Below, piece after piece: positions 2,581 through 20,085 of a stretch of DNA of 22,187 nucleotides (positions are counted from its first letter, which is position 1; each line of letters opens with the position of its first letter). The stretch comes from a virus: positions 1 through 22,187 of the IMG/VR virus record IMGVR_UViG_3300036398_000824; one strand, 5' to 3'. The position numbers were made by a program, and so were the translations under genes. Below the pieces are notes generated by a model. The model ran no database searches. It was not told the DNA's origin and saw nothing but the letters and a program-made list of their open reading frames with translations.

Positions 2581-3219
2581 TTAAGTTGCATTAACAAAAG
2601 TTACTTTGTTGTATAATTCATAGTCTGCTTTTAAATAATCTAAAACTTTTTCTTTGCGACGTAAATTTTTACCATCAAAAAAATAGGTAGAGATTTTTTT
2701 ATGTAATTCGTCTTCGTTACTTCGTGCATGTATTTTAGCATTGTTTAAGTTATTTGGGCAACCTTCGTTGTGTAACCAATAGTTCAATGCCTGCCCTAAT
2801 TTATCTGTCATTTTAAAAAAAGCTATTTGTTCTTGAGGCAAAACTTCAAAAATTAGATTTAAGATTTGTGTCTGTAGTTGCGCATGTGCATCAAAACAAA
2901 GAACATCTCTATCTATAAGAAAATCAATAAACCAATTTAAGTTTACATTTCCATTATAAAAAATATTTTCTAACTCTTTTGTTTCTTCAGGCGACCTATA
3001 ATAAATCCACTTTGATAAATCCTGAGTAAATGCTGTTAACCATCTTTCATATGGATCTCTAAGAATGACAAATCTTTTAATTTTTCTATCAATTGGAACG
3101 TACTTTAGGTGCCAATTTAAATTAGATAGTGTAGTTGCAAGATAAGTTGTAGCATTTTTTAGAATTGGAATATTCTGCACACGATAGTTTGGATCACAAA
3201 ATCCTAAAATTTCATTCAT
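2581..3219 (-). CDS. Sulfotransferase-like protein 1
   Basis: A 212-residue protein with the two PAPS-binding signatures of sulfotransferase family 2-like proteins. A 5'-phosphosulfate loop-like IPILKNATTYL lies near residues 17-27, and a 3'-phosphate-binding RDPYERW at 54-60. The rest is helical with many aromatic residues. Sulfotransferases move sulfate from PAPS to sugars or other hydroxyl or amine groups; the acceptor here is unknown. The start at 3219 gives an ATGAATGA overlap with the upstream stop; a start at 3249 would overlap that gene by 38 nt. It is distinctly AT-rich, like the second sulfotransferase-like gene at 7010-7615, suggesting paralogs or a shared origin. Confidence 0.65.
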   Translation of the reverse strand: MNEILGFCDPNYRVQNIPILKNATTYLATTLSNLNWHLKYVPIDRKIKRFVILRDPYERWLTAFTQDLSKWIYYRSPEETKELENIFYNGNVNLNWFIDFLIDRDVLCFDAHAQLQTQILNLIFEVLPQEQIAFFKMTDKLGQALNYWLHNEGCPNNLNNAKIHARSNEDELHKKISTYFFDGKNLRRKEKVLDYLKADYELYNKVTFVNAT

Positions 3220-3424
3220 CACTATATCCGATACGTTGTGTGTCTTCATCCCATTGTAATTTGTTTAATCTATTAATTTCATCTTTAACTTGCAATTTTT
3301 TCTTTTTTAGTTCAGATAAATGTGCTTCATCAATGTGCGGATGATTGGTCTGCATTTCATTGATTTGTTTGTCCAGCAGTTTATGCATTTCTTCCAGATG
3401 TTGAATTCTACCTTTGTAGTTCAT
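3212..3424 (-). CDS. Small YdcH/DUF465-like coiled-coil protein
   Basis: Seventy residues, nearly all helical. The pattern is LEEMHKLLDKQINEM, then an acidic turn, then LSELKKKKLQVKDEINRL. This matches the YdcH/DUF465 (PF04325) layout of a short helical hairpin with LKKxKLxxKDEI. The role of this family is not established. A GGAG lies about 8 nt before the ATG. Its stop overlaps the start of the sulfotransferase-like gene. Confidence 0.7.
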   Translation of the reverse strand: MNYKGRIQHLEEMHKLLDKQINEMQTNHPHIDEAHLSELKKKKLQVKDEINRLNKLQWDEDTQRIGYSDE

Positions 3425-3445: not shown

Positions 3446-4411
3446 TTAAACAAATAATGTTTCAACTACTTTGTTATCAGCTTTAGATTTTTTCTTTTGT
3501 TTCATACCAGGATGAACTTTTTTGTTCTTAAATTCAGTTGCTTGAAATATTGTGCGTGGTACAAAAAATCTATCCATAACACCGCTGACCTTTTGATATG
3601 TTGTGCCAAGGTCGTTGCCATTAAAATCGCACATTACATAATCTCCTAGACTCATCATAAGATCAATGATATCATCACACTTGTAACCAAAACGTTTGCA
3701 GTGTGTATCACGAAGTTCAACTTGGACTACTGGTTGCCATTGCTTGATAGTTTCTACTGCACCTTGCAGTACAAATAGTTCTGTGCCTTCAACATCAATC
3801 TTGATTAGATCAACTTCTTGGAAATTAAAACTATCCAAAGTTCTTTGATCTGCTGTCTGTGTAGGATTCTTTGTTTTTCTACCTTCTACTAAAACAGCAT
3901 CGCCGCGACTGCACTCTGCTGTTTTTTCTTCCATAACAATTGTTCCAGAATCTGCACCAAGAGCATACTCAAAAAATTCAATATCGCCCACTAGCTTTAA
4001 ACTAGCAAAGGTTCCGTCAGCTTGTTTAAACCATCCATCATCATGGTCTGGCTGATGTCGTACTTGTTTTAATTTGTTATCCCAATATCTACCTTTGAGT
4101 TTAGCGTTACGAGCAATATCAACGTTTAATTTCATTAGTTCTAGACTAGATTGCATAGGTTCAAAACTTTTTACGTTCTTACACCATGTTGCATATTCTA
4201 TTGTATTCATGCCGATATTTGCACCTACATCAATTACAGTTCGCGCATCGGGCAATAGTCGTCTATTCATTACTAGATTACGAGCTTGATATGGACCATT
4301 CTCTCGCGCCATTCTTTGCTCATACAGCTTATCTGTGGACCAGATCCAGTATTCTCTACCAATACGATTTATAACTTTTTTCTTATTGTTTATGTCAAAT
4401 AGTTGTGTCAT
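3446..4411 (-). CDS. FkbM-family SAM-dependent methyltransferase
   Basis: A 321-residue protein with an FkbM-type methyltransferase core: SAM-binding motif I VIDVGANIGMNT (residues 59-70), an acidic strand end SFEP (82-85), and the family hallmark DLIKIDVEGTE (201-211). A typical C-terminal strand FFVPR follows. FkbM enzymes are O-methyltransferases, often acting on sugars or secondary metabolites. Between motifs there is a phage-specific insert (about 105-140) rich in charged residues. The C-terminal 25 residues are lysine-rich. It sits among sulfotransferase and glycosyltransferase genes, which fits glycan decoration. A sigma70-like promoter lies just upstream. Confidence 0.85.
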   Translation of the reverse strand: MTQLFDINNKKKVINRIGREYWIWSTDKLYEQRMARENGPYQARNLVMNRRLLPDARTVIDVGANIGMNTIEYATWCKNVKSFEPMQSSLELMKLNVDIARNAKLKGRYWDNKLKQVRHQPDHDDGWFKQADGTFASLKLVGDIEFFEYALGADSGTIVMEEKTAECSRGDAVLVEGRKTKNPTQTADQRTLDSFNFQEVDLIKIDVEGTELFVLQGAVETIKQWQPVVQVELRDTHCKRFGYKCDDIIDLMMSLGDYVMCDFNGNDLGTTYQKVSGVMDRFFVPRTIFQATEFKNKKVHPGMKQKKKSKADNKVVETLFV

Positions 4412-5467: not shown

Positions 5468-7006
5468 TTAAACTTCTAATAATGAATTTAACTTGTTGTC
5501 ATCAAAATCTTCTTGGCTTGTTTGGTCTGGTGCATCGTGTTCTAGTTCAAATAAAGCATTAAACATTGTATTAGAATTTTTGGTTTTTTTACCTTTAAAT
5601 CCACGAGTACCTACAACATCCATCCAATAACGATCATAATGTTCAATAATTGATTCAGATTCTCTACGGTCAGAAGTTGCAAAAATTGCATCCACTATGT
5701 CTCTAAATTTGGCATGATCACCGTTTGAGTTCCATAACATGTTTGGCCATTTGCCATTATCATATTCACGATTGGCACGTTGTACTGCTTCAATGTGTGT
5801 CCAAACATTGTGACCCATTAGTAACATATAACTAAAACTATCCCAACTGGTCTTACCTTCTTTACCATTTTTGTTTAAGTCACCAGGCTTGTACACACAG
5901 ACATCTTTCATAGCAATGTTTTTAGATATAGGACTTTCATCAAATACTTTAATTAATCCATCTGCTAGAACTGCCTGACCAAAAGGTCTAGTGTCTGTGG
6001 AATACTTTTTATCATCTACAATAGGACTCATGCGATAACACCATTTACCATCGTGTGGCAAATCAATGTGATGATATACTTGACCATTAGCTGTTGCTAA
6101 AAACGGACTAGCACAATCAAAGCTAATTGTAAAATTAGGATTTATGTAACGACGCACGGCTCTTTGAATATCAGTGAGAAGTAGTGCCCATTCTAATTTG
6201 CTTGTACCTAAAAAATGCATCCAGTCATGCACACCTTCTTGTAATAGATTATCATGTCTAAGGGCAACCAACCGTTTAAGAACAAGATGAACATCGCACA
6301 TGTTTTGTCCACCCATTGCCCAACCATTAAAATGCGTATCTGGATACTTTACAGGATCGCAATAATCCTTCATCATCTGATACCATTCTTCTGCATGAGT
6401 ATGATTACCGCCTTGTAGTACGTTTAAGAACTTGGTGCCGCCGTTCTTGATACCTTTACGGTGTTTCATAAAGTATTCGTTATTATAGTGTGTGGCTTTG
6501 ACTGCTTCGTCTAGTGTGCTGATGCCAGACTTCCACCCATTCTTTTCATTGATAACAAAACTTGGAATATCCAATGTCATTGCATAATCAGCAATGCCAT
6601 CTAGCCATGCTAATGCTTGTTCACGTTTCTTCTGTGCTTTCGGACAACCTGAACCTGCACGCCAATCTCCATCCCATACACCTTTAGCAATCTGGAAACC
6701 ACCAGAGTCGCCTAGCATGATGGTACCTGGTTCGCGTTTACGAACCATATCTTCACTAGCGTCATCTTTAGACAAATCTAAGTTTGCGTGTCCGCCTGAG
6801 TAAAGACTCCACCGATAGGGGAAGAGGGCCTTTTGGCTGTTGAGCCAATTGAATTGCTCCATGTCTTGCAGCGCCTGTGGCATACGAGCAAGGTCAACAT
6901 AGTCATTGTTAACACGTTGTTTTCCTATAAAAGTTGCGTAAAAGCCAGATATAGCAGGTAAGAACACCGCATAATCATTTTGCTTTGCTGTTAAATTATC
7001 TTGCAT
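5468..7006 (-). CDS. DpdA-like / tRNA-guanine transglycosylase-like DNA 7-deazaguanine transglycosylase
   Basis: A 512-residue protein of the TGT superfamily. Visible signatures are GDSGGFQ (99-105, the TGT hallmark), TLDIP with Asp146 where TGTs carry a catalytic Asp, VLQGG (196-200), GWAMGGQ (228-234), FLGTS (265-269) and SFDCASPF with Asp297 where TGTs carry the covalent nucleophile. The classical CxCxxC zinc site of bacterial TGT is not evident, as expected for phage DpdA-type enzymes. DpdA enzymes replace guanine in DNA by preQ0 or derivatives, which protects phage DNA from host nucleases. At 512 residues it is longer than bacterial TGT, with a C-terminal extension of about 180 residues. 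It starts 3 nt after the sulfotransferase-like gene, with no clear Shine-Dalgarno, so translational coupling is likely. A tRNA substrate is less likely but not excluded. Confidence 0.75.
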   Translation of the reverse strand: MQDNLTAKQNDYAVFLPAISGFYATFIGKQRVNNDYVDLARMPQALQDMEQFNWLNSQKALFPYRWSLYSGGHANLDLSKDDASEDMVRKREPGTIMLGDSGGFQIAKGVWDGDWRAGSGCPKAQKKREQALAWLDGIADYAMTLDIPSFVINEKNGWKSGISTLDEAVKATHYNNEYFMKHRKGIKNGGTKFLNVLQGGNHTHAEEWYQMMKDYCDPVKYPDTHFNGWAMGGQNMCDVHLVLKRLVALRHDNLLQEGVHDWMHFLGTSKLEWALLLTDIQRAVRRYINPNFTISFDCASPFLATANGQVYHHIDLPHDGKWCYRMSPIVDDKKYSTDTRPFGQAVLADGLIKVFDESPISKNIAMKDVCVYKPGDLNKNGKEGKTSWDSFSYMLLMGHNVWTHIEAVQRANREYDNGKWPNMLWNSNGDHAKFRDIVDAIFATSDRRESESIIEHYDRYWMDVVGTRGFKGKKTKNSNTMFNALFELEHDAPDQTSQEDFDDNKLNSLLEV

Positions 7007-7009
7007 AAG

Positions 7010-7615
7010 TTATTTTGCTGCCTGTAATAAAAAATAGTCTAAACGATATGTGTTTTTTATTTTTTCTACGTATTTTTGATCAAGTCGTGTACGGAAAAAA
7101 TTTACTAAATTATTTGTGTCGTAATTATTCTGTGACGCATTATCATTTGTAATTCTTAAATCAAACGATAATGTGTTACCAATATACTTAGACAGATTAT
7201 CTAGCAGTGTGATTTTATTTGCTAAAAAATATTCTATGTGTTTATTAGCAGGAACAAAGTTTACAAATTCTATTTGAGGTGTTGTATGATCGTCAAATAT
7301 AATATTATCAAAAATAAAACGTTCAACTAATTCATTGTAATCGTCAATGAACATATCACTACCATAGTTTTCACCTAGTAGATTTGCTGCTACATAAGTA
7401 GCCATGCCTGAGATCCATCTTTCAACCGGATCTCTAATTATACAAATTACATTTGACCCATTGTAAACACTTAGATCACTATATTGCCAATTGTTTTGTC
7501 TTAATACACTTGAAATAAAAACGCTAGCATTTTTTGGAATACTTAAGAAAAAGAAATCTCCATCTGGAGAGATCAACCCGCCACCAATCTTATGACCTCT
7601 CCCTAGAAGATTCAT
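7010..7615 (-). CDS. Sulfotransferase-like protein 2
   Basis: A 201-residue protein with a clear sulfotransferase outline: FFFLSIPKNASVFISSVL (residues 21-38) as the 5'-phosphosulfate-binding loop and VICIIRDPVERWISG (56-70) as the 3'-phosphate-binding segment. Helical regions follow. It resembles protein 1 (2581-3219) in both motifs and in length. The start overlaps the clamp gene stop (TAATG), so it would be co-transcribed with the clamp from the promoter at 8358-8386. The acceptor is unknown; surface polysaccharide is the usual target of this family. Confidence 0.7.
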   Translation of the reverse strand: MNLLGRGHKIGGGLISPDGDFFFLSIPKNASVFISSVLRQNNWQYSDLSVYNGSNVICIIRDPVERWISGMATYVAANLLGENYGSDMFIDDYNELVERFIFDNIIFDDHTTPQIEFVNFVPANKHIEYFLANKITLLDNLSKYIGNTLSFDLRITNDNASQNNYDTNNLVNFFRTRLDQKYVEKIKNTYRLDYFLLQAAK

Positions 7616-14395: not shown

Positions 14396-14830
14396 TTATT
14401 TAAGCGTTGCTCTCAACATCCAAGAATGTTTTGCATGCGCATCTTGTCTGCTAGCTAGGAAATCACTTAGCCCATGTAGGCCTAGTTCTTCGGCCGCTCT
14501 AAAAACTATACGAAACATTTCTTCCATGCGTTCACTGTCTTGAAGTAATTCTGCTAACATTGCTTCAGCTGGTAATATTTCTAACTCGTCATCAATTTGA
14601 CTTAACATGCTAAATCTTGCGAATGATCCGGGAGTGTATGTTCCAGTGGCGCGAATTTCCTCTGCAAACTTGTCTATGCTGCCATATACTTCTTCGTAGA
14701 TGTTGGCAAACAGTTCGTGATATTGAGGAAAGTTAGGGCCTTCCACATTCCAATGAAAATAGTGAGCTTTTAAATAAAAAGTGTATTCACTAGCAAATGC
14801 AATTTTTAAAGCCTTTTGTAAAGATTCCAT
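14396..14830 (-). CDS. Dps-like ferritin
   Basis: A 144-residue four-helix protein of the Dps/ferritin-like family. The signature AHYFHWNVEGPNFPQYHELF is followed by YGSIDKFAEEI. The ferroxidase ligands of Dps (His26, His38, Asp53, Glu57 by position) are all present, so iron oxidation is plausible. Dps proteins form 12-subunit shells that store iron, remove peroxide and sometimes bind DNA. The protein is shorter than typical bacterial Dps (about 165) and lacks a lysine-rich N-terminal DNA-binding tail. The start at 14830 gives the expected family N-terminus. A GATAAATA motif ends only 5 nt before the ATG. Confidence 0.85.
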   Translation of the reverse strand: MESLQKALKIAFASEYTFYLKAHYFHWNVEGPNFPQYHELFANIYEEVYGSIDKFAEEIRATGTYTPGSFARFSMLSQIDDELEILPAEAMLAELLQDSERMEEMFRIVFRAAEELGLHGLSDFLASRQDAHAKHSWMLRATLK

Positions 14831-15701: not shown

Positions 15702-16274
15702 TTATCGTTGATCTTGGTCTTGTTGCATTCTTCTAATAATACTTTGATTTTGTCTTGCAGGATCTATGTAATTTTTAATTTCTTGATCGGCAAATGCCTT
15801 GGGATCTTGTAGAAGTTTCCCCGCTGTAAAAACTTTGCCTAAGAAATCTAATCCTTTTCTTACATTACTAGGCGGCTGTTGATCTTGTGGTTGCAGTTCG
15901 GGGATTCCTTGTTCCTTCATGGAACGAGTCTTGGTTGCTACGTTTTTAGCAGCTCCTCGGCGTTCAGGATTGGGATCTTCTCTACGCTTTTTGGCTGCTG
16001 AACTGGCACGGCCTTTTTTGCCTAGGCTGTGTGCTTTACTGGCTGGCAAGCATTTTGGTTTACCTTCGCCGCTGTCTCTGCCACCGCACTCGCCACGGAT
16101 CTTGCCATCTGGACCAAAGCGCACCCACTTCTCTTTGAACCATTTTTTAAGATCTTCTTCCAGTTCTTGCTCGCTCATCTTAACGCAGTTAGGCACCTGG
16201 CGGTCGCCTTTCTTTTTCATACCACGCTGTTGATAGCCATCCCAACAAGCTTCTAGAAGTTCTTTATATTTCAT
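15702..16274 (-). CDS. Basic, possibly virion-internal protein with leader-like N-terminus
   Basis: A 190-residue, very basic protein of low complexity. The first residues MKYKELLEACWDG look like the T4 capsid-targeting leader (MKTYQEFIAEA) and contain LLE|A, a good match to the T4 prohead protease rule (Leu/Ile-x-Glu|Ala/Gly). A WFKEKWVRFGPDGKIRGECG module and a KPKCLPASKAHSLGKKGR module follow, then a long Lys/Arg/Ala-rich region (about 85-125) and a Gln-rich C-terminus. Such a layout fits a DNA-associated internal head protein, which is my inference. The start overlaps the upstream stop (ATGA). Confidence 0.6.
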   Translation of the reverse strand: MKYKELLEACWDGYQQRGMKKKGDRQVPNCVKMSEQELEEDLKKWFKEKWVRFGPDGKIRGECGGRDSGEGKPKCLPASKAHSLGKKGRASSAAKKRREDPNPERRGAAKNVATKTRSMKEQGIPELQPQDQQPPSNVRKGLDFLGKVFTAGKLLQDPKAFADQEIKNYIDPARQNQSIIRRMQQDQDQR

Positions 16275-17350
16275 TTTTTACTCTTGTTGCCCCAATTTTT
16301 AGCACCTACTTTACGACAGCGCACCAGGGCGCCTGATGCATAGGCACTTGGCCACACTTTGTAACGACTTTTTACTTTACTGTAGCAAGCATCTTGCTTC
16401 TCTGCCAACATCTTGTCTTCGTATGCAGGACCTCCGCACTCAGGACATAGTGTTGCAGACTCGGTTACAATGTCATAACCAGCACGACGCATTTCTTCTA
16501 GATAACCCTCAATGTCTTCATTGGTCACTACCTTTGCGACGCCTACCATTTGGTCTTTAGGTTCAATTGGCTTTTTATTTTTCTCTTGTTCTTTATGCTT
16601 CTTAGCTGCTAAGTCTGCCACACTACCTTTACGAGGCTTCTTGGCACCGTATGAGAATGGTCCTGCTTCCGCCACACCTTGTCCACTAACCATGGTTTCG
16701 TCGCTATACCAAACTACATTGCCTTCAGGGTCTGTGATTTCAGCAGTGGCAAAAACATACTGCGGGAAGTCTTCAAACCAATCTTCGGCCCATAATATGG
16801 CATCATCTTCGCGACGGAATTTTTTTGTTTTAGTACGACTGTTAGGACGCTCGCCTGTGTTGATAGTTAAAGTGAATGGTCCGTATAGACCAGCCGCTTC
16901 CGCCACACCTTGCTCAAAATCATCCATCGAGAATGTCATGAACTGATTACCTTTGCGTAAAATGATATTCGGATCATCTTCGTCGATTTCAATACCCATT
17001 GATGCTAATGTTTTTGTTGCCTTTATATGTTGTTGCTCGTTGCCTGTCCACCACATTTTAGCAAGTTTGTACAATAAATCATATTCATCATCGTCATCAC
17101 CACCGTTAAATCCATCTGGTGCGAATTCATTCAATGAGCCTTCCGCCACACGATATTTCTTTTTAATCTCTGCTTGTGCCGCAATACGCTTGGTATCATC
17201 CTCAATGTCATAGGATGCTTTTAATTCTTTATAATAGTCAGGATCAGGCAGGCCGCTCTTCTTTCTTAGTTCTTGATGACGGCGATGTAGTCGATCTTGT
17301 GCCGAGCCTTCTGTTATTTTTTTATTTTCAAAGAGATCGTTAACGAACAT
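16271..17350 (-). CDS. Probable virion protein with repeated protease-like sites and a Cys-rich C-terminus
   Basis: A 359-residue protein of modules separated by short motifs. The N-terminus MFVNDLFENKKITEGSAQ resembles a capsid-targeting leader with ITE|G at 12-15. VAE|G (68-71), VAE|A (149-152) and VAE|A (226-229) follow, the last two inside QGVAEA. Between them are an acidic domain (77-147), a small alpha/beta domain with Trp-rich WAEDWFEDFPQYVF (187-200) and a Lys-rich linker. The C-terminus has CPECGG (302-307, a half zinc site) and DACYSKVKSRYKVWPSAYAS (320-339), a module I recall from marine phage virion proteins. It could be a polyprotein cut during head maturation; this is inference from motifs. 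Confidence 0.6.
   Translation of the reverse strand: MFVNDLFENKKITEGSAQDRLHRRHQELRKKSGLPDPDYYKELKASYDIEDDTKRIAAQAEIKKKYRVAEGSLNEFAPDGFNGGDDDDEYDLLYKLAKMWWTGNEQQHIKATKTLASMGIEIDEDDPNIILRKGNQFMTFSMDDFEQGVAEAAGLYGPFTLTINTGERPNSRTKTKKFRREDDAILWAEDWFEDFPQYVFATAEITDPEGNVVWYSDETMVSGQGVAEAGPFSYGAKKPRKGSVADLAAKKHKEQEKNKKPIEPKDQMVGVAKVVTNEDIEGYLEEMRRAGYDIVTESATLCPECGGPAYEDKMLAEKQDACYSKVKSRYKVWPSAYASGALVRCRKVGAKNWGNKSKK
16665..16681 (-). repeat. 17-nt direct repeat, copy 1 (encodes QGVAEA)
   Basis: This 17-nt segment is identical to 16896-16912, and a 12-nt part of it occurs again at 17140-17151. Each copy encodes a VAE(A/G) motif in the same gene. Confidence 0.85.
16896..16912 (-). repeat. 17-nt direct repeat, copy 2 (encodes QGVAEA)
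   Basis: Identical to 16665-16681 and lying 231 nt from it, a multiple of three, so the reading frame is kept. It encodes the second QGVAEA motif. Confidence 0.85.
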
Positions 17351-17351
17351 T

Positions 17352-17855
17352 TTAAATCGCCTGTTGTCTAAGTTGCGCTATCTGTGAAGAAAGTGCTTCA
17401 ATTTGTTGTTTTACACCAACTTTTTGTGCATTCATTTGTTGCAAGCTCATGGCCTTTTCTACAGGATTGGCACCTTGTGGAAATGCTTTATTCATGTCGG
17501 CCAACTGGGCACGAGCACCTTGCATTTGTGCAGTTAATCCAGCAACTTGATCTTTAATTTGCCCTTTTTGCTGATTTCTCTGTTGTGTTAGCATGGCTTC
17601 TTGATTAGGGTCCTTGGCAGTGTCATTGCCAATACCAGATCCAGGAGCACCATATTCGGCAAATTGTTGTCTCAGACTTTCTTCTAAATCTTCTTCAACG
17701 CTTTCGGAAGTACCGCCATCCCCTACCATGCGGCTACGAGATTTTTTGGCTGAATCTTTACCTCGCCAGTAACCAGGCCATCGTGGGCCTGTAGGCTTAC
17801 GCTCGGCAGCTGCCATAGCATCCATAGATTCTAACAGTTTTCTAATATCAGTCAT
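17352..17855 (-). CDS. Gln/Ala-rich coiled-coil protein, possible virion-internal
   Basis: A 167-residue protein. It starts MTDIRKLLESMDAMAAAERK, similar in style to the leaders of neighbouring genes though its LLE is followed by Ser. A basic Trp/Lys/Arg stretch follows (about 20-45), then a Glu-rich segment, then a long Gln/Ala/Leu-rich helix (about 90-167) likely to form a coiled coil. No enzyme motif is seen. It overlaps the upstream gene by one base (TAATG) and the downstream gene starts 1 nt after its stop, so it belongs to the same tight unit. A head scaffold or internal head role is plausible but unproven. Confidence 0.65.
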   Translation of the reverse strand: MTDIRKLLESMDAMAAAERKPTGPRWPGYWRGKDSAKKSRSRMVGDGGTSESVEEDLEESLRQQFAEYGAPGSGIGNDTAKDPNQEAMLTQQRNQQKGQIKDQVAGLTAQMQGARAQLADMNKAFPQGANPVEKAMSLQQMNAQKVGVKQQIEALSSQIAQLRQQAI

Positions 17856-18319
17856 TAATAAATGCCTTTACCTACCTCAACCTTTTTAGGCTTGTACGAA
17901 TTGCCTACTTTTTTAGGTACACCAGATATCTTTTTATTAGCAGGGCCAGTTATACTAGTTGCAACACCAGATGCGGAACTTGCACCACCTGTGGCCATTT
18001 CATTAATCATTTTGTCTAATGCATAATCGGCAGCCGCTTCTGCAAATGGCATCATTTCTGGTTGTTCACTTGCAGCTTCATATTTTAAATAATCTTGAAC
18101 ACTTTCTAAGTATTCACTAGCTACAGCAATTTTAGTTTGTACCCAACCTTCTAGGCCTTCCATTTCACTAACATTTTTCAGCAGTCTGTGAATTTGAATA
18201 GCTGCCTGTGCTGCACTGTACAGTTGACTACGAGCCATTTGTACTTCGTGATCTCTATGCATATCATCTGCTTCTTGTGCGATAATGCTGTTTTCTACGA
18301 TAAATTCTGTTGGTTTCAT
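17855..18319 (-). CDS. Helical protein conserved in marine T4-like phages, possible virion protein
   Basis: A 154-residue, mostly helical protein. The N-terminus MKPTEFIVENSIIAQEADD is leader-like (compare T4 MKTYQEFIAEA), although its candidate cut sites are weaker matches. The middle (about 25-82) has DHEVQMARSQLYSAAQAAIQ and MEGLEGWVQTKIAVASEYL, a pattern I recall from marine phage structural-type proteins. The C-terminus is Gly/Ser/Lys-rich and contains TSITGPAN (121-128), also found in the protein at 21228-21950. A late-type promoter motif lies 20 nt before the ATG. Confidence 0.65.
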   Translation of the reverse strand: MKPTEFIVENSIIAQEADDMHRDHEVQMARSQLYSAAQAAIQIHRLLKNVSEMEGLEGWVQTKIAVASEYLESVQDYLKYEAASEQPEMMPFAEAAADYALDKMINEMATGGASSASGVATSITGPANKKISGVPKKVGNSYKPKKVEVGKGIY

Positions 18320-18339
18320 GTTTGTTCCTAATAATATAG

Positions 18340-18347
18340 TATTTATT
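18340..18347 (-). promoter_or_regulatory. Late-type promoter motif AATAAATA
   Basis: AATAAATA on the minus strand, directly after the stop codon of the upstream gene and 20 nt before the ATG at 18319. Confidence 0.55.
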
Positions 18348-18668
18348 TTACCTAGATTTTAATTGATTATCAATTATAAAACGCCATTCAACTTGATTAT
18401 CGCCTTGACTTAAAAAGTATCTATTAACTGGAGTAGAATTAACTATAAATTGATCTAGTTCAAATCTGCCGTCTTTATTAACATTTTCTAGTTTAATAGT
18501 ATGTATACCTGTTTCTAAATAGCAGCTTACGAGTTCTTTAATATAAAATTCATACGACTTCCATCTAAACTTTCTTTCGGTGATTAGTTCTTGGTCTACA
18601 TAAATTCTATAAACAGGAGGCTGACCATCCCAATGGGCGTGAACATCAATCTCCAATTGATGATACAT
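18348..18668 (-). CDS. Small beta-rich protein, carbohydrate-binding-like
   Basis: A 106-residue protein of alternating strands: LEIDVHAHWDGQPPVYRIYV, LITERKFRW, IHTIKLENVN, FELDQFIVN and VEWRFIIDN. The Y-R-I-Y-V-D-Q-E-L strand pair followed by a Gly-rich turn recalls small beta-sandwich modules that bind sugars with calcium. This is a structural resemblance only. It resembles the protein at 19603-20085 in strand order and in phrases such as I-x-S/D-I and L-x-I. Its start shares the TAATG of the upstream stop. Confidence 0.55.
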   Translation of the reverse strand: MYHQLEIDVHAHWDGQPPVYRIYVDQELITERKFRWKSYEFYIKELVSCYLETGIHTIKLENVNKDGRFELDQFIVNSTPVNRYFLSQGDNQVEWRFIIDNQLKSR

Positions 18669-19573
18669 TATTTTTTCCTGCCCTGACAGTGGGCTCGTTG
18701 GCTAAAACCTTTTGGTGCATTACAATTGATACTTCTTTTGTATTTTGCACTCCACTTTTCTTTTAGTGTTCCGATTTCTTCTTTTAATTTTTGTACGTTA
18801 TCTGCCAGATGCATTTTACGAAGTTGTCTCCCAACTTCACCTGGTCTAATATCTACTGTTAGACTATGTGAATATCTTGGATCCTTGGCCTGTTTTTTGC
18901 TGGCTATTACACCTACGCCGCCCGCTTCTTCGTTGACTGTTTTGGGAATTTTATCTAGAACACGACCAAGTTCCGGATCATCTCTTCCGTACATTTGTAA
19001 CAGAAATTCTGATCTAGCTTTGGGATTGTCACGCACTGCGTTCCATGCTGCTCGTGATGGTGTTCCGTGACTTACATCTACTTGTTGTCCATTGATAGTA
19101 ATTACTTTTTGACGCTCGTCTGCAATTATTACATATCCGTGTTTGTCAGCAGTTGCGCATTTGTCTAAGCTTTCAAAAGTTTTAAAATACCCCGGACTGC
19201 CGTCCTTTTTTAAACTGTCAGGACGCAGACGATCTCGGTCCGGGGCACCTACTGCTGCAATAAAAATAGTGTTAGCAGGGTTAAATTGAGGTTCGGGTAG
19301 TTTGTAAGGATTGGTTACTTCAATGATACGGTCGCTGGGGATACCAGCTGCTGCCATTAAAACTGCTTTATCGGAAAAATTAAAAGGACTTTTTGGAAGT
19401 TCTACTTTATTACTAGTAGCTATGTAGACATTGTCTCTGCCAAATTTATTTTGCAGACTGCGAAAAACTTCGCCGTGCCCAAGATGAAAGGGTTGAAATC
19501 TGCCCGGATATAGTACTACTAAATTGGGTCCTGCTTCGGCTATGTAACTTTCAAATAAATCAGCAACGTACAT
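18668..19573 (-). CDS. Cytidylyltransferase-like nucleotidyltransferase (NMN adenylyltransferase type) with leader
   Basis: A 301-residue protein. Residues 1-14, MYVADLFESYIAEA, resemble the T4 internal-protein leader and end in IAE|A. The catalytic domain follows with VVLYPGRFQPFHLGH (19-33), the nucleotide-binding HxGH motif of NadM-like and related adenylyl/cytidylyltransferases, then FNFSDKAVLMAAAGIPSDRI and IEVTNPY. Such enzymes join a nucleotide to a phosphorylated small molecule, for example NMN to give NAD. The C-terminal 30 residues (about 272-301) form a basic Cys-containing module (INCNAPKGFSQRAHCQGRKK). The exact substrate is unknown. Leader, catalytic core and tail suggest an enzyme carried in the virion. 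A late-type motif precedes the gene. Confidence 0.7.
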   Translation of the reverse strand: MYVADLFESYIAEAGPNLVVLYPGRFQPFHLGHGEVFRSLQNKFGRDNVYIATSNKVELPKSPFNFSDKAVLMAAAGIPSDRIIEVTNPYKLPEPQFNPANTIFIAAVGAPDRDRLRPDSLKKDGSPGYFKTFESLDKCATADKHGYVIIADERQKVITINGQQVDVSHGTPSRAAWNAVRDNPKARSEFLLQMYGRDDPELGRVLDKIPKTVNEEAGGVGVIASKKQAKDPRYSHSLTVDIRPGEVGRQLRKMHLADNVQKLKEEIGTLKEKWSAKYKRSINCNAPKGFSQRAHCQGRKK

Positions 19574-19602: not shown

Positions 19603-20085
19603 TTAAATGTTCTCCAGTAACCAAATGTAGAAAGGACTTTGGAATGGCAAAATCCAGCGTCCATTCCATCCCAAATTGACACAATTTTTGACAGATTCTA
19701 TTAGTTCTTTGCCGTCTTTTATTGCCTGTTGTTTGTATGATTCTGGATAATTTGGTCTGTAATCACTAGCTGTCCAACACAATGAACCAAGATCAATATC
19801 GTCTATTTCAATTGACTCTATGTTTAATAACAAATCATCAACAATGTTACCCTGGGCATCAAGCACAGTATCATACACTGTTTTGTTTACAAATTCAACT
19901 ACTAGTTGACACTCTCCTTCCGGAACTTCGGCATCAAATTCAAAAAACTCCGGAATTTGAGCGTCAGTAGTAATTTGTGAATCTATATACTGCTGACCAT
20001 TTAATGAAACAATAAACTTAGGTTTCTTCTTGTTTGAAGAACTGCTTAGACCTATTTTAAAGTGTAAAGTTTCTTTATCTGACAT
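19603..20085 (-). CDS. Beta-rich phage protein, carbohydrate-binding-like
   Basis: A 160-residue acidic protein of repeated strands (PKFIVSLNGQQYIDSQI, FFEFDAEVPEGECQLVVEFV, LLLNIESIEIDDIDL), ending with CVNLGWNGRWILPFQSPFYI. It has the look of a beta-sandwich module similar to 18348-18668. From memory, marine phages encode relatives ending in a W-N-G and F-x-S-P-F-Y motif. A tail or decoration protein that contacts sugars is possible, but no binding residue can be pinned down. AAGG lies before the ATG; 8 nt separate it from the glycosyltransferase stop. Confidence 0.6.
   Translation of the reverse strand: MSDKETLHFKIGLSSSSNKKKPKFIVSLNGQQYIDSQITTDAQIPEFFEFDAEVPEGECQLVVEFVNKTVYDTVLDAQGNIVDDLLLNIESIEIDDIDLGSLCWTASDYRPNYPESYKQQAIKDGKELIESVKNCVNLGWNGRWILPFQSPFYIWLLENI

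Follow-up and report, generated by a model that had tools for sequence, protein, structure and literature searches.

We analyzed a 22,187-nucleotide (nt) viral contig (IMG/VR record IMGVR_UViG_3300036398_000824; hereafter the window) and found that five genes on its minus strand, between positions 15702 and 19573, begin with short leaders resembling the capsid-targeting leaders of phage T4, and that the product of one of them (16271–17350) is a polyprotein. We consider it likely that these genes form a head-cargo cluster, that the polyprotein is cut by a prohead protease of the S77 family, and that its cassettes are swapped at an in-frame repeat doubling as the cut site. In the proposed scheme, the leader (M-K/R/F-x-x-[DE]-F/L-[ILF]-x-E↓, the arrow marking the predicted cut) would direct each protein to the prohead core, and the phage S77 protease (gp21) would cut after the leader Glu. 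In the polyprotein, one leader would carry several small modules into the head together, to be freed by this protease at V-x-E↓G or V-x-E↓A sites between them. Each junction would be a near-invariant in-frame DNA repeat (about CAAGGTGTGGCGGAAGGC), where cassettes could be gained, lost or exchanged while the frame and the cut site are kept; homologous or microhomology exchange, with selection for an intact frame and cut site, would be the simplest account of this recombination. The freed modules would probably enter the host along with the DNA, like the T4 internal proteins. At the sequence level, leader conservation, module equivalence, breakpoints at the sites, the DNA repeat and a protease gene in relatives support the scheme. 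Core targeting, cleavage by gp21 after Glu, retention of the products in the head and their ejection are proposed by analogy with T4, and the functions of the modules and the mode of recombination are what we infer from these patterns.

A sequence-only reading of the window had proposed the five leaders, and all five open reading frames (ORFs) carry them: MYVADLFE↓SYIAE↓AGP (18668–19573), MKPTEFIVE↓NS (17855–18319), MTDIRKLLE↓SM (17352–17855), MFVNDLFE↓NKKITE↓GS (16271–17350) and MKYKELLE↓AC (15702–16274). Leaders of the T4 type have 10–19 residues and end in L/I-x-E before Ala or Gly. In the window, L/I-x-E is present at residue 8 or 9 in all five, and two leaders hold a second site, at residue 13 (18668–19573) and residue 14 (16271–17350). 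Ala or Gly directly follows the residue-8/9 Glu only in 15702–16274 and follows the second site in 18668–19573 and 16271–17350; the remaining sites are followed by Asn or Ser. The leader of 17855–18319, which had been taken for a weak version, is in fact the best match of the five to the MKTYQEFIAE type of T4, and its relatives begin with MKTTDFIVE, MKPQDFLTE, MNSKDFLHE and MKKSDFVKE. Overall, 5/5 cluster leader genes and 0/20 of the other listed window genes have [LIV]-x-E with its Glu at one of these two positions; the middle gene of the cluster (18348–18668) is leaderless. Across 1,973 proteins of related phages, 72 have the Glu of this motif at residue 8 and 89 have it at residue 9, whereas positions 60–110 of the same set average 13.7; such a sharp peak points to a processing leader rather than to composition. 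At that rate (13.7 per 1,973 proteins), by our own arithmetic, at least five such genes among 25 would be expected by chance with a probability of about 3e-5.

Two of the checks suggested by the sequence-only reading, a comparison of leaders across related phages and a search for a gp21-like protease, came out in its favor. The leader is conserved while the cargo differs; for example, 34 otherwise unrelated proteins of related phages have only an MRAxEFIxE leader in common, a set partly biased by its pattern-based selection. Ten of the nearest contigs had no match to a narrow DNA pattern for MRAxEF leaders; their leaders are of the MF[IV]xDLF or MKxxEFI types. The S77 prohead protease (PF03420) was found on 13 related contigs, including a 221-kb contig whose version of the gene at 18668–19573 is 73% identical to that of the window. 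A related 199-kb contig encodes a portal, gp67/68-like proteins, the S77 protease, a scaffold and gp23 in T4 order, and the gp23 N-termini of S77-bearing relatives contain NLAE↓T or YLKE↓N at the T4 gp23 cut position. The window’s DNA polymerase shares up to 51% identity with T4-superfamily phages and up to 94% with environmental contigs. Because the leaders are conserved, relatives encode S77, their gp23 carries an LxE site, and a cytidylyltransferase family detected in virions has a similar leader (see below), we regard capsid-targeting leaders with a T4-type cut site in the cluster genes as strongly supported in silico. This part of the earlier proposal stands, but the proposal was incomplete, as it had overlooked the polyprotein.

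Four internal copies of the motif (VAE70↓G, VAE151↓A, VAE228↓A and VTE297↓S) divide the product of 16271–17350, the fourth of the cargo genes, into a leader (17309–17350; MFVNDLFE8↓NKKITE14↓G) and five segments, all on the minus strand. Module 1 (residues 15–70; 17141–17308) is a three-helix unit with VAE↓ at its end and an AlphaFold2 (AF2) predicted local distance difference test score (pLDDT) of 74–93; it recurs in other contexts in L020, L268, L289 and L290. Module 2 (residues 71–151; 16898–17140), an alpha/beta unit with pLDDT >90, ends in GVAE↓ and has a 72% identical counterpart in a different context in L010/L118. Module 3 (residues 152–228; 16667–16897), with a beta-beta-alpha-beta-beta order, also ends in GVAE↓. 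Module 4 (residues 229–297; 16460–16666; AGPFSYGAKKPRKGSVADLAAKK) is mostly disordered, ends in VTE↓, and is seen again in L206, as a gene of its own, and at internal positions in L002, L006, L289 and L297. Module 5 (residues 298–359; 16274–16459) is a Cys-rich, basic C-terminal module that is part of phrog_727 (1.4e-21), the cyanophage T4-GC119 family. In the AF2 model, low-confidence linkers separate the folded modules, and each of the four sites falls within such a linker or at its edge; the predicted TM-score (pTM) of 0.34 for the whole polyprotein indicates that the pieces have no fixed mutual orientation; a Foldseek search with the whole polyprotein gave no significant match. The junction repeat is present in three copies, at 17138–17152 (core GTGTGGCGGAAGGC), 16895–16912 (CAAGGTGTGGCGGAAGCG) and 16664–16681 (CAAGGTGTGGCGGAAGCA).

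Stand-alone leader genes of related phages are homologous to internal modules, with the homology beginning directly after the Glu. For example, MRATEFITE↓AFDKPY, MRAQEFVAE↓AFDRPY and MFFHEFRKQHLVE↓GFDQPY correspond to an internal VAE↓AFDTPL, and the L206 gene, MFVNDIFKKLDE↓AGPFRS, corresponds to an internal VAE↓AGPFSY. Among 37 non-redundant leader genes, the Glu stands just before the homology in 22 and at most one residue away in 29, compared with a background of 12%. Judged by these alignments, the leader site and the internal site are equivalent. The CWxGY module of the window gene at 15702–16274 is likewise found inside polyproteins (GELDE↓ACWKGYHKEG within L195) and behind leaders in relatives (MMRYREILE↓ACWTGY in L216 and MRLTDFITE↓KCWKGY in L035).

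In related contigs, ORFs of this kind reach about 1,570 residues with up to eight [Q]GVAE↓G or [Q]GVAE↓A sites, and cutting 102 of them at VAE yielded about 190 module clusters with varying neighbors, one large cluster being chained through common C-terminal modules. Few named domains appear in the relatives: GNAT, GH19, ParB_N, nucleotidyltransferase, DUF6321 and a weak Kinase-PolyVal, along with an acid phosphatase-like match among modules or leader genes. Relatives join biochemically unrelated domains within one polypeptide (GNAT, ParB_N, nucleotidyltransferase, DUF6321 and the weak Kinase-PolyVal); the window protein holds only unnamed folded modules. Within the window’s own lineage, where a neighboring gene is 67–100% identical, the orthologous polyprotein varies from 237 to 874 residues through module turnover; in several of these polyproteins the first and C-terminal modules persist while the middle is replaced. 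The breakpoints of this exchange coincide with the sites. In a mixed locus set, for phage pairs that share 45 nt on one side, homology stops across 91–93% of VAE sites versus 23–26% elsewhere, and among 732 internal ends of shared DNA, 167 are no more than 24 nt from a site in each of the two phages (random expectation 7.3, standard deviation 2.6).

The junctions are also conserved in their DNA spelling. At 87 sites in loci found only through protein homology, and not chosen by the repeat pattern, the Ala codon is GCG at 62 (5.7% expected, p 5e-57) and the Val codon is GTG at 62 (17% expected, p 2e-28). Positional conservation drops beyond about 20 nt, and most sites have Gly or Ala at the P1' position, directly after the cut. 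A DNA scan of viral contigs found 164 exact repeat copies, of which 162 are read by the longest ORF in the frame that gives QGVAE. The exact 18-mer had 26 matches in 257 Gb of bacterial and archaeal genome contigs, with no array in any of them and nearly all being single occurrences in an unrelated frame or gene; since these matches are at chance level, we rejected a bacterial source of the repeat. The DNA spelling, the retained frame and the chance-level occurrence outside phages together suggest that both the DNA and the protein levels are constrained or were recently copied. Among cultured phages, we rejected Sinorhizobium phage Phosso as an array carrier, as a Gly/Ser-rich protein of its baseplate region holds the GTGGCGGAGGC copies. 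Between Clp and DNA polymerase, Phosso and Atu_ph07 have collagen-like or fibre-like genes that lack leaders, so synteny with them was also set aside.

Several points weigh against a cleaved, injected polyprotein. The support gathered on these phages consists of sequence comparisons and structure models. The internal sites are mostly V-A-E rather than the L/I-x-E of T4 gp21, so cleavage there would require the specificity of the protease to be relaxed or shifted. The 22-kb window contig, a fragment that lacks the head region, has no S77 protease gene. Pfam gave no match for most modules, which leaves a host-directed function weakly supported. The locus set was partly retrieved through the repeat itself, and the breakpoint tests were run on this mixed set, a bias that the codon test avoids. 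The main rival, which we think unlikely, holds that the modules are packaged and work as one uncut multidomain (polyvalent) protein in which QGVAEG is a flexible linker whose DNA promotes exchange. Strong conservation at the DNA level indeed requires no protease, and known polyvalent proteins include kinase, ParB, nucleotidyltransferase and GNAT domains, to which weak matches occur here. However, the same modules recur as separate leader-tagged genes with the T4-like cut site exactly at the module edge, which argues against uncut packaging; most sites keep Gly or Ala at P1', and other junctions retain [VI]-x-E without the repeat DNA (VTE↓S, VNE↓D and VTE↓R).

Cut and packaged modules might instead act within the head as structural or DNA-condensing proteins, like T4 IPIII, rather than on the host, a possibility that we hold to be doubtful and yet the most credible of the alternatives. 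Among the recurrent C-terminal modules, several are short, Cys-rich and basic, and DNA binding at low salt is known for the internal proteins of T4, but other modules or leader genes match nucleotidyltransferase, GNAT, GH19, ParB_N and acid phosphatase-like enzymes, and the rapid turnover is closer to that of arms-race cargo than to that of structure. That the leader targets a destination other than the head, such as the membrane or tail assembly, with its Glu motif uncut, appears highly improbable given that the leader matches that of T4 in position and form, and that T4-GC190, with a similar leader, was found in S-SM1 virions together with gp21. We give almost no credence to the mosaic architecture being a metagenome assembly artefact at short repeats. 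The array-bearing contigs are all metagenomic, but identical architectures in contigs of different data sets (L285=L286, L290=L291 and L287=L020) argue against assembly error, as do frames that stay open through all modules and a repeat of 15–18 nt. Assembly words are usually longer than this.

The remaining cargo genes are all on the minus strand. Gene 1 (18668–19573; leader MYVADLFESYIAE↓AG at residues 1–13, 19535–19573, with possible cuts at LFE8↓S and IAE13↓A) is predicted to adopt a nicotinate-mononucleotide (NaMN)/NMN adenylyltransferase-type nucleotidyltransferase fold. It matches Pfam CTP_transf_like (PF01467) at 2.6e-6, in line with a cytidylyltransferase or NaMN adenylyltransferase-like fold, and the GxFxPxHxGH motif is present as GRFQPFHLGH. 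In its AF2 model (pTM 0.63), residues 1–13 have pLDDT <50 and a confident core extends from residue 14 to about 212; the top Foldseek match is NaMN adenylyltransferase (NadD; E 9.7e-4, with a modest TM-score of 0.43). The protein ends in a basic Cys/His module (SINC..PKGFSQRAHCQGRKK), and about 20 orthologues keep the leader. Gene 2 (17855–18319) belongs to a DHEVQMAR family and has no assigned function; its leader (MKPTEFIVE↓N, residues 1–9, 18293–18319), the nearest of the five to that of T4, is conserved in the family. Gene 3 (17352–17855; leader MTDIRKLLE↓S) is likewise functionally unassigned, and a possible relative at other loci begins with MDIRDILKSFDQLTE↓G. Gene 5 (15702–16274; phrog_727, 8.9e-17) carries its leader MKYKELLE↓A at residues 1–8 (16251–16274), followed by CWxGY and basic KCLPASKAHSLGKKGRASSAAKKRR segments. 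A PADLOC search with the leader genes gave no matches.

Around these genes, a leaderless pair flanks gene 1 (18348–18668, inside the cluster, and 19603–20085, both minus strand); the two look like distant, beta-sandwich-like paralogues. Directly downstream of the cluster, a leaderless Dps/ferritin-like gene (14396–14830, minus; PF00210, 1e-20) has the PHROG annotation ‘DNA binding protein’. Elsewhere on the minus strand, the protein at 5468–7006 carries a GDSGGFQIAKG motif and resembles tRNA-guanine transglycosylase/DpdA-type enzymes, making 7-deazaguanine DNA modification possible. Two proteins (2581–3249 and 7010–7615) have sulfotransferase-like RDPYERW/RDPVERW motifs, and 3446–4411 is a candidate FkbM-like methyltransferase. 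Rfam and tRNA scans of the window returned no matches. In two relatives (L266:4785–5747, plus strand, and L232:5751–8642, minus strand), a module starts with a twin-arginine-like sequence (MNRRGFLGRAGAAAAVAAAPGLAKA) right after a [TV]xE site, the L232 module matching PF10518 at 1.7e-4; cleavage at that site would uncover an export-like signal at the new N-terminus.

More broadly, the evidence leaves us evenly divided on whether T4-like and jumbo phages keep an exchangeable cassette system for injected effectors, in which a translated repeat of about 18 bp would serve as recombination joint, frame keeper and head-protease cut site, so that captured modules would automatically be expressed, packaged, separated and delivered. 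If true, the scheme would amount to a polyprotein strategy, with the head protease cutting in trans, in a tailed DNA phage; it would also account for the quick swapping of early-acting proteins by T4-like phages. The roughly 190 clusters would then form an unnamed set of candidate counter-defense or takeover factors, and the leader or the VAE↓ junction could serve as a simple tag for spotting head cargo from sequence alone. The arrangement also suggests that, in T4 or other laboratory phages, a single targeting signal could be used to package several separate proteins.

Diverse T4-like cargo behind a conserved leader is already known. In the open-access papers searched (subscription papers were not covered), we found no earlier account of a head-cargo polyprotein in which prohead-protease sites are repeated and cassettes are exchanged at them. 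In T4, the leader takes internal proteins to the core, gp21 cuts after Glu, and the products are kept in the head and ejected (PMC9026906); IPI, IPII, IPIII and Alt resemble the window’s cargo in their short N-terminal leader, S77 cut after Glu, diverse cargo and clustered genes (PMC9026906). T4, however, has one mature protein per leader and Leu or Ile at P3, whereas here up to about nine modules follow a single leader and the internal P3 is Val. The cyanophage T4-GC190 cytidylyltransferase, which was found alongside gp21 in purified S-SM1 virions (PMC3037559), parallels window gene 1 as a nucleotidyltransferase behind a head-type leader (P-SSM2 MKSFSQFLTE↓T; Syn9 MKKFSAFLSE↓A; S-RIM2 MKKFSAFLTE↓A; S-SSM7 VKSFGQFLTE↓A; P-TIM68 MKSFTSFFTE↓A; ACG-2014b MKKFSAFLNE↓A; Melnitz-2 MKKFSEIIE↓A). 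T4-GC119 (phrog_727) has the same Cys-rich modules joined by [IV]-x-E↓. Unlike the window’s arrays, both families have few modules and no QGVAEG repeat. Cultured cyanophages also carry these Cys-rich modules joined by [IVT]xE↓ (L090:11683–12498 and L091:11470–12675), and the GenBank remark ‘similar to Synechococcus phage S-SM1 protein’, which stands on the T4-GC119 gene and on virion proteins alike, may mark virion-detected proteins.

The prohead protease substrates of phiKZ and SPN3US share x-x-E cleavage of packaged ejection proteins, some at multiple sites (PMC10052503), but there multiple cuts chiefly remove N-terminal propeptides, whereas here they would part folded modules. Polyvalent proteins of phages and conjugative elements (Iyer et al. 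2017, PMC5512222) similarly join many unrelated domains, of overlapping types, in one packaged polypeptide; they are predicted to be injected and processed, the processing being ascribed to embedded metallopeptidases (PMC5512222). No peptidase domain, and hence no embedded zincin-like metallopeptidase (common though not universal in polyvalent proteins), was found in 17 polyproteins scanned here. What sets the present arrays apart from polyvalent proteins is that they carry repeated sites matching a separate head protease, together with an in-frame DNA repeat at each joint.

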